In this document: positions 2,914 to 5,001 of the stretch, one piece after another
Layout of the letters: each line of letters begins with the position of its first letter
Numbering within the stretch: the first letter of the stretch is position 1
Origin: Clostridia bacterium
GTDB lineage: Bacteria; Bacillota; Clostridia; RUG12999
Assembly: GCA_022801925.1 (NCBI GenBank)
Contig: JAAWTG010000030.1
Location: forward strand, 1 to 34,854
DNA length: 34,854 nucleotides
Direction of reading: 5' to 3'
Translations under genes and position numbers: made by a program
The notes under the pieces: generated by a model
Seen by the model: only the letters and a program-made list of their open reading frames with translations
What the model was told of the DNA's origin: nothing
Database searches by the model: none

Positions 2914-3639
2914 CTAATGTTTTTTTCCCTCTGCCCGCAGCCAGTCCAGCAGTTTAAAACGGATTTCAAATTTCGGCTGTCCATCTTCTGTCACGACTGC
3001 GCCGTCTTCTTCGTCTTCCGCTGCCACATTGGTGATTGCCATTCTGGTATTAGCAGAAATTTTATTCAGAGATTCCTCCGGCATTCCGGCAGTACTCTCT
3101 TCCACAAAGCATAGCGGCGGGAACATCACGCACCACCAGTTATGCCCTGCACCTTCGCCAATCAAAACGCGCAGCGCAGGATATCGTCCGGCAGGCAGCG
3201 TAACGTTGCCATACCGGCGCAAGGGAAAATCAAAAACGCCAAGCTGTACGCTGACCGGATAATCATATCCCTGTTTTTGAATTTCGTCCAGCGCCACAGC
3301 GCGGATATCCGCCATGTGACTGCGAATTTGCTGTTCCGCTTCCGCCGTATTTTGCGCTTCCTCCAGCGGCAAACAAGTCTCCGCCAGAATGCGGTCGCGC
3401 ACCTTCATTTTTAATGCCTGATCCGCTTCACTGTCGCTGTTTGCCAATACGTGAAACCGAATCAGTTCCCCGTCATACATAACGTCCTTCCCGTTACTGC
3501 TTCCTGTGACAACCGCTGCTGAAACTATCAAACTCAGCATGACGGCTGCCGCTGCCGACATACAGGCAAGCCGCACTGCTGCGGTCGCTAAAAATTTTTG
3601 TTTCCATTCACCCCAGATACATTGTAATTTTTCTTTCAT
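2914..3639 (-). CDS. spoIIR: Stage II sporulation protein R
   Basis: 241 residues. SpoIIR is the secreted forespore signal that triggers SpoIIGA to process pro-sigma-E in the mother cell. It has an N-terminal hydrophobic segment (about residues 22-46) after a basic stretch, then the conserved SpoIIR core: IRFHVLANSDSEADQALKMKVRD, a helical section, and HNWWCVMFPPLCF, the family hallmark. ATG 3639 follows AGGGTG. It heads an operon with the sleB-like and ypeB genes, 13 bp before the first. A candidate sigma-F promoter is at 3711-3739. In Bacillus spoIIR is monocistronic; linkage to germination genes here is notable. Identification is confident. Confidence 0.92.
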   Translation of the reverse strand: MKEKLQCIWGEWKQKFLATAAVRLACMSAAAAVMLSLIVSAAVVTGSSNGKDVMYDGELIRFHVLANSDSEADQALKMKVRDRILAETCLPLEEAQNTAEAEQQIRSHMADIRAVALDEIQKQGYDYPVSVQLGVFDFPLRRYGNVTLPAGRYPALRVLIGEGAGHNWWCVMFPPLCFVEESTAGMPEESLNKISANTRMAITNVAAEDEEDGAVVTEDGQPKFEIRFKLLDWLRAEGKKH

Positions 3640-3739: not shown

Positions 3740-3780
3740 CAGCGTACAAAAAAATTTCATTATAAAAAAACACCGGACTT

Positions 3781-3804
3781 TGAACCGTCCCCAAAAGGTT
3801 AGAC
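3781..3804 (+). repeat. Left terminal inverted repeat of IS element
   Basis: TGAACCGTCCCCAAAAGG then TTAGAC. It matches the reverse complement of 4387-4410 in its CCCCAAAA and TTAGAC core. Confidence 0.8.
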
Positions 3805-3835
3805 CAAAATCTACGATTGGGAGGTCGGTTTTTTC

Positions 3836-4346
3836 ATGGCAACATATATGTATTGGCAAAAGCGATTTGACAGAGAAAACCCTAATAAAGAACTTGAAGA
3901 TAAGATCATTGAAATTCGTAAAGAACACAAGGATTTCGGCTATCGCAGAGTTTGTGGTGAATTGAGAAATCAGGATATACGAGCTAATAAGAAACGAGTT
4001 CAAAAAATAATGCAAAAGCTGAATCTTCAAGTGACTTCATTTACTCGCAAAAGCCGTAAATATAGTTCATATAAAGGTAATGTAGGAAAAATTGCACCTA
4101 ATAGGATTAACAGACGTTTTAACACAAGTATCCCACATCAAAAGATAACTACGGATACGACCGAATTTAAGTATTATGCGATAAACAATAAAGCAAGAAA
4201 TGTATTACGGAATTACATATTACAGCTTTGATGAGCTTAAAGAAACTATTGAAAGATATATAAAATATTACAATGAGAAAAGAATTAAAGAGAGACTTGG
4301 GTGGATGAGTCCGGTACAATATCGTCTCAACGCTTTGGCTGCATAA
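3836..4346 (+). pseudogene. IS3-family OrfB transposase, internal out-of-frame deletion
   Basis: The first frame (from ATG 3836) has the normal OrfB N-terminus: MYWQKRFDRENP, then HKDFGYRRVCGELR, and IPHQKITTDTTEFKYYA, the start of the rve core with its first Asp. Near 4190 the sequence jumps. From 4191 in a +1-shifted frame it reads KQEMYYGITYYSFDELKE, then NEKRIKERLGWMSPVQYRL and TAA 344-346 of that block (4344-4346), the normal OrfB C-terminus. About 110 codons with the second Asp and the Glu of the DDE triad are therefore deleted, and the frame is broken. The first frame alone ends at 4231 after a short nonsense tail. It cannot make active transposase. Confidence 0.88.
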
Positions 4347-4348
4347 AA

Positions 4349-4381
4349 ATAGCGTAGCAGTCATTAAAACTACTACGCTAT
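4349..4381 (+). terminator. Hairpin at the 3' end of the IS
   Basis: TAGCGTAG (4350-4357) pairs with CTACGCTA (4373-4380) directly after the transposase stop, with a T-rich run shortly downstream. It is probably the element's own terminator. Confidence 0.6.
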
Positions 4382-4386
4382 AAAAA

Positions 4387-4410
4387 GTCTAATTTTTTGG
4401 GGGCACATCA
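4387..4410 (+). repeat. Right terminal inverted repeat of IS element
   Basis: GTCTAATTTTTTGGGGGC then ACATCA, the inverted partner of 3781-3804. Confidence 0.8.
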
Positions 4411-4443
4411 TTTATCAAAAGTCCGGCGTGGTTTTCGTTTCTT

Positions 4444-5001
4444 CTATTTTTTCTTTTCCTCATCGCTGCCATCTAAAATCTGCGACAAACATTGATAAAA
4501 CCCTGCATAAAGTTCATTGCGTTTCTCCTTCAACTTGTGTTTGGTTTCAAGCGCTTCCTCTCTGCCCGACACCCGAAACGCAATTTCAAGCTGTGGCAGA
4601 CGGCTTTCGCGATAGGTACATTTCACCAAATAGGAAATATCATCCAGCGGCACATAGTCCACCTGAAATTCCTCACTGCGTTTTTCTTCTTTCAATTGTT
4701 CCTGCACGAGTTTTGTCAGCTCTTCGCGGCGTGGCAGCGGCAGCTTTTTCACAAAAATTTCAATCGCTTCCTCGCCCTCTTTTGTCAGCATGTGATATTG
4801 TTCTGCTTTGTAGTTATAGGAATGGACAAATTCCGACTGGTTCAGTTCATACAGCGCTTGCTTGAGATCAAAATAATTGACTGCATAGGCTTCTACCAAA
4901 ATGTGAATCATGGCATCCTCCGGCACAGCGTTGTTATATTTATGAATGATATATAAAATTGCAATTTTAAGCGTTGACGGTCGTTTAATGACAGGTTCCA
5001 C
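4444..5001 (-). CDS. DUF4364 family protein (predicted winged-helix)
   Basis: 185 residues from GTG 5001, with GGATGTG about 9 nt upstream. The N-terminal 70 residues (KRPSTLKIAILYIIHKYNN, then the LKQALYELNQSEFVHSY segment and YHMLTKEGEEAI) have the helix pattern of a small winged-helix DNA-binding domain of the kind found in DUF4364, a family widespread in Clostridia with no assigned role. The rest is a mixed alpha/beta region (about 115-160) and a charged tail ending DEEKKK. No signal peptide or membrane segment is visible. Its terminator has been split by the IS just downstream, so read-through toward spoIIR may be altered. Family call by recollection of the pattern; function unknown. Confidence 0.7.
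   Translation of the reverse strand: MEPVIKRPSTLKIAILYIIHKYNNAVPEDAMIHILVEAYAVNYFDLKQALYELNQSEFVHSYNYKAEQYHMLTKEGEEAIEIFVKKLPLPRREELTKLVQEQLKEEKRSEEFQVDYVPLDDISYLVKCTYRESRLPQLEIAFRVSGREEALETKHKLKEKRNELYAGFYQCLSQILDGSDEEKKK

Follow-up and report, generated by a model that had tools for sequence, protein, structure and literature searches.

The window analysed here, 34,854 nt of a Clostridia genome, contains a DUF4364 gene whose intrinsic terminator is split by an insertion sequence (IS). Read along the minus strand, the order is DUF4364, one hairpin arm, eight loop bases, a 630-bp element, the second hairpin arm, a T7 tract and spoIIR (Table 1). The host arms are 11 bp long, including one G.U pair. 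The element abuts the 3′ arm exactly (3780), and eight loop nucleotides (4418-4411) are left beside the 5′ arm. We infer a 3-bp target duplication whose two copies read CTT and TTT, the latter being CTT with one change. Taking out the element with one copy of this duplication restores the DUF4364 hairpin; the joined flanks (element removed) fold at −19 kcal/mol (z −6.4).

Table 1. Features at the split DUF4364 terminator (positions within the window)
Feature	Position	Strand	Basis
DUF4364 gene with split terminator	4444..5001	-	Pfam PF14277, E 7e-30
Host terminator 5′ arm, ACGCCGGACTT on minus strand	4419..4429	-	Sequence; intact in empty site L040
Leftover loop bases (8 nt)	4411..4418	-	Sequence; compared with L040
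Presumed second copy of 3-bp target duplication, TTT for CTT	4411-4413	-	Compared with L040
IS3-family (IS150-type) deletion derivative, 630 bp, ends TGAACCGTCCCC / GGGGGCACATCA	3781..4410	+	Ends agree with other copies
Left end with inward-facing hairpin then T tract, weak in window copy	3781..3832	+	−15.7 and −13.9 kcal/mol; z −1.1
OrfB transposase N-terminal remnant (HTH_21)	3836..4231	+	PF13276, E 2.9e-14; NF033516
OrfB C-terminal remnant, other frame	4200..4346	+	Compared with G032 and G132 copies
IS-borne terminator facing inward from right end of element	4349..4381	-	Fold −20.2 kcal/mol, z −5.5
Host terminator 3′ arm, AAGTCCGGTGT on minus strand	3770..3780	-	Sequence
Host terminator T7 tract	3764..3770	-	Sequence
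spoIIR, next downstream gene	2914..3639	-	PF09551, E 9e-50

Among nine genomes of the family searched (its own included), an empty DUF4364 site was found in one congener, G002 (CATIYX010000326.1, isolate iMGMC-479), where DUF4364 is 98% identical. The site (L040), which comes directly after DUF4364 and ahead of spoIIR, reads ACGCCGGACTT-TTTGAT-AAGTCCGGCGT-TGTTTTA: a single intact hairpin with a 6-nt loop and then a T-rich stretch, folding at −25.8 kcal/mol (z −8.3). An IS-free homologue was the check that the initial annotation had proposed for its claim that an IS3-type element sits in the loop of this terminator; the arms are adjacent in G002, and the insertion is borne out. Its further claim that the arms flank the element exactly holds at the abutting arm but not at the other, where the eight loop bases intervene; because these bases remain, the loop was interrupted, not replaced by 630 bp as had been supposed.

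The element has lost OrfA and most of the catalytic core, and we therefore do not expect this copy to move itself. What remains matches PF13276 (HTH_21) and NF033516, placing it with IS3-family transposases, and its OrfB is 72% identical to that of G132 over the retained part; the intact G132 copy carries HTH_28/HTH_Tnp_1 and rve, with OrfA and OrfB as separate ORFs, and the full-length G132 type measures 1,539 bp. The TG...CA ends and 3-4 bp duplications of the IS3 family are present, with a few members ending in TA and one mismatch in the window duplication. A second internally deleted copy of the same kind (L005, G032:C1:1112412-1115981), 1,246 bp long, has an OrfB without the middle of the catalytic core and sits in a terminator with the duplication AGA. 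The window copy was too short to enter our OrfB tree of 49 rows, in which the window-like elements form one group (100/100). These, the more distant IS150-type group and E. coli IS150 share one branch (97/98), with IS3 and IS2 outside on long branches; control group C1 joins E. coli IS3 (99/96), and the exact places of IS2, C2, C3 and C4 are unsure because their branches are very long.

To gather further copies, we searched the element DNA in 60 relatives (matches in 10) and an OrfB query in 393 genomes of the class (33 at E 1e-25) and 398 genomes of the phylum (10 at E 1e-60), and fetched the copies with their flanks. Terminal repeats and duplications served to place the ends, by hand for L115, L117, L104 and the window copy. 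Of 64 loci, 8 yielded no ends and 13 more were dropped because they lay at contig ends, duplicated another copy or had uncertain ends, so that 43 distinct copies were kept; half-flank copies of G055 were excluded from the counts. Three copies in G132 (L085, L086 and L087, C1 1918240-1935466) have identical flanks at a spacing of 7,313 bp; they belong to a repeated 7.3-kb unit and were counted once.

The left and right flanks of the same copy pair at a mean of −18.6 kcal/mol, against −8.9 for mismatched flanks, part of whose pairing stems from A/T tracts common to flanks (n=43); none of 2,000 permutations reached the observed mean. Pairing went beyond the 5% level of the mismatched control for 29 of the 43 copies and beyond the 1% level for 17, and about a third of the 43 (for example L074, L076, L077, L079, L104 and L117) showed no convincing split hairpin. 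What the insertion sites have in common is structure and not sequence: the arms differ from site to site (L082, for example, reads AAAAAGAAGTACCCCCGGT[IS]GGTTTGTGGCCGGGGGTACTTCTTTTT), and the duplicated triplets are highly varied (CCA, GAA, TAA, AAG, GTT, GGT, ATT, ACT, CGT and more).

Uninterrupted counterparts were seen for four further insertions, three in G132 (L080, L082 and L088) and the purB site, empty in G002, that is described below. We looked for the joined flanks of the three G132 copies in 11 genomes from the genus, one of them G132 itself; some match turned up in 8, and uninterrupted sites were present in G219, G185, G394 and G325. All seven empty sites that we aligned are intact terminator hairpins; at L088 the hairpin bases near the junction are almost identical in the alignment.

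We also noticed palindromic mini-elements of about 54 bp, at L010 (~1503-1556, G034), L011 (~1497-1550) and L019 (~1501-1553, G015), which are built solely from the IS left end and bounded at both sides by IS-like termini; the one at L010 is placed between terminator arms AAAAGGAG and CTCCTTTTTT. These are possibly tiny non-autonomous relatives.

For comparison with other elements in the same hosts, the whole IS3 family was searched in 14 genomes and 60 regions were fetched. Regions without a partner copy were left unused, except L179, and L178, L184-L186, L204, L208 and L209 were kept out of the groups for uncertain ends. Among window-like copies, 20 of 32 have a perfect stem of at least 7 bp close to the insertion, as do 16 of 28 copies of the more distant IS150-type group; for the other IS3-family groups the counts are 0/7, 0/9, 0/3 and 1/4 (23 control copies from three genomes, with ends uncertain in the last group). 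All groups, controls included, were defined when the flanks were already known to us. A T or A tract accompanies the arms in 16 of 19 window-like and all 16 distant copies, which argues that most targets are terminators and not arbitrary palindromes. The target duplication is 3 bp in 27/32 window-like and 24/28 distant copies. Within genome G132 alone, split hairpins flank 7 of 8 window-like copies and none of 16 copies from two other IS3-family groups (Fisher 2.3e-5); the host being the same for all copies, this points to a property of the transposase rather than to survival alone. That terminator loops might be a targeting preference of this IS group had been a guess; this contrast and the flank pairs stronger than 95% of mismatched ones now give it substance. 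One of the uncounted regions, L186 (G201:C1:1018100-1020900), holds a third IS type of G201 that seemingly splits a terminator too (AAAACCTCGC ... GCGAGGTTTTT).

The ends of these elements carry terminators of their own. We scanned IS ends reading inward and scored a hairpin plus T tract against 15 shuffles. In all 14 window-like representatives, both ends beat 15/15 shuffles; the distant group gave 7/9 on the left and 9/9 on the right, and four control elements gave none on the left and one, marginal, on the right. The right-end hairpins vary in sequence among elements, with the fold preserved. At the left end, the terminal repeat forms part of the hairpin, whose second arm likely carries the OrfA ribosome-binding site directly before the start codon, so that this hairpin may also silence transcripts arriving from outside.

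The right-end terminator of the window copy (4381-4349, minus strand, which is the strand of DUF4364) has a 14-bp stem and a T tail; some 40 nt separate it from the first host arm, which precedes it. Because this strong terminator faces inward, DUF4364 transcription is predicted to stop in the right end of the element. The initial annotation had offered two outcomes, delayed termination by refolding of the distant arms or read-through that could reach spoIIR. In an equilibrium fold of the full length the arms can pair (mean probability 0.95), but they are ~650 nt apart, with the second beyond the IS-borne terminator, which would come first. Read-through into spoIIR was likewise set aside as unlikely, given a predicted terminator on the DUF4364 strand.

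Remnants elsewhere show what such an end may leave behind. In G000 (C56) and its congener G001 (C93), part of this IS right end survives after purB, at the place where G002 has an ordinary terminator, ACCGGAGAGGATATCTCCGGT, followed by C and T7 (the empty site, by blastn). The first host arm is present in G000 and G001, and the IS hairpin with its T5 is the sole terminator-like structure seen there; a second host arm after purB was not seen in either genome. Downstream of an HTH gene, at L003 1501-1553 (G000:C42) and L018 1501-1555 (G001:C41), there is little beyond the IS right-end hairpin and T tract; this locus had no counterpart found in G002. Judged from their sequences, both remnant loci are consistent with genes that now use IS-derived terminators.

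Our explanation, to which we give a probability of roughly 0.8 as a whole, is that the window element is a decayed, non-autonomous IS150-group (IS3 family) copy, that it entered the loop of the intrinsic DUF4364 terminator and duplicated 3 bp there, that its lineage prefers terminator hairpins, and that the terminators in its ends replace the one it splits. The anatomy and the terminator preference have good support. As to mechanism, the most likely one is that the transposase recognises the hairpin and that termination is restored. The transposase would probably recognise the hairpin or palindrome as a DNA structure, inserting at or near the loop, as the lack of any common sequence among the duplicated bases suggests. 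With inward intrinsic terminators at both ends, transcription from the host gene would meet a new terminator within ~100 nt in either orientation, and the split terminator would thereby be replaced. Insertion would then be nearly neutral, and the same terminators would shield the transposase genes from outside transcription.

A possible objection is that these elements insert anywhere and that copies persist only where they fell in harmless terminators. Most insertions in genes do not survive, and terminators are safe places, but in G132 the copies of two other IS3-family groups lie outside hairpins (0/16 versus 7/8), and the insertions lie at or near the hairpin centre, not anywhere between genes; we consider survivorship of this kind quite unlikely to account for the pattern. 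Recognition of a sequence rather than a structure, through some short motif common in terminators, could draw on the A and T tracts that terminators share and on the E. coli IS150 copies, which lie in one similar sequence context beside hok genes. The wide variation of the duplicated triplets and the different arms at each site make a motif an improbable guide, if a less implausible thought than survivorship.

That the arms are part of the IS, or arose after insertion, has in its favour that the IS ends themselves contain hairpins. The initial annotation had named the flanks of other copies as a check on this, and those flanks differ from copy to copy, which makes the arms the host's; the same arms moreover form intact terminators in empty sites. 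We rejected this idea as having next to no chance of being right.

We return to structure recognition and terminator replacement for a broader proposal: that an entire branch within the IS150 group lives by terminator exchange, seeking and splitting intrinsic terminator hairpins and supplying a new one from either end, and that after decay the IS-end terminator can stay as the gene's own. We hold this to be about an even bet. If true, transposition would be a route by which bacterial genes change terminators. The findings as a whole link the landing site of an IS to the effect of its ends on transcription, matters usually treated apart, as one testable, low-cost transposition strategy. Across Clostridia and other Bacillota, terminator loops become sites where landings can be predicted; the family is suited to studying how a DDE transposase reads hairpins, and there are concrete cases of a host gene apparently using an IS-derived terminator.

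Insertion sequences that seek hairpins are already known (IS1397 into REP units, the unrelated IS1272 into terminators), and group IIC introns also favour terminators. IS1397 and ISKpn1 belong to the IS150 group. The available text on these IS3-family elements (PMC1525189) describes specific insertion into palindromic REP units, credits the specificity to the transposases, and mentions no built-in end terminators, which the element here has. They target a single repeated family, the REP units of enterobacteria, whereas the targets here are intrinsic terminators of many sequences, with arms that differ among sites and do not form a single repeated palindrome family. For IS1272 and TnSha1 (IS1182 family), the insertion sites described are hairpins, many of which are terminators, and there is little dependence on primary sequence (PMC4923244). 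IS1272 has a transposase of another family, though, and its insertion is described as blunt, deleting part of the stem with no target duplication; the elements here make a 3-bp duplication and keep both arms. IS1447, an IS3-family element frequent in Clostridia with 3-4 bp duplications, is described in the portion available as having 5′-TA ends and lying outside the major subgroups, with no terminator preference reported (PMC6211511). We rejected a relationship to IS1447 on account of its TA ends and of our TA-ended control group C2, which behaves differently in showing no terminator preference. Our literature search, in which subscription journals were thinly covered and sources were available in part, found no description of terminator insertion by IS150-type elements, nor of the combination of terminator targeting with duplication and replacement terminators at both ends across the IS150 lineage.

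E. coli IS150 itself falls on the same OrfB branch. We examined 16 copies, on chromosome and plasmids (L222 2134-3576 and L239-L253): the MG1655 copy and 15 chosen by us from 40 entries spread over the 3,429 records that matched. For 14 of them an annotated hok or mok gene is no more than 600 bp away, and 7 of the 14 are at hokA. The arms flanking IS150 at hok genes presumably resemble the Sok terminator. These arms are short, the flank pairing is weak (−6.8 to −18.4 kcal/mol), and the insertions seem to share one repeated type of locus as target, in which E. coli IS150 differs from the elements described here. We treat its position beside hok/mok as a lead; in a laboratory evolution study, new IS150 insertions are reported at hok/sok and ldr loci (PMC5419217).
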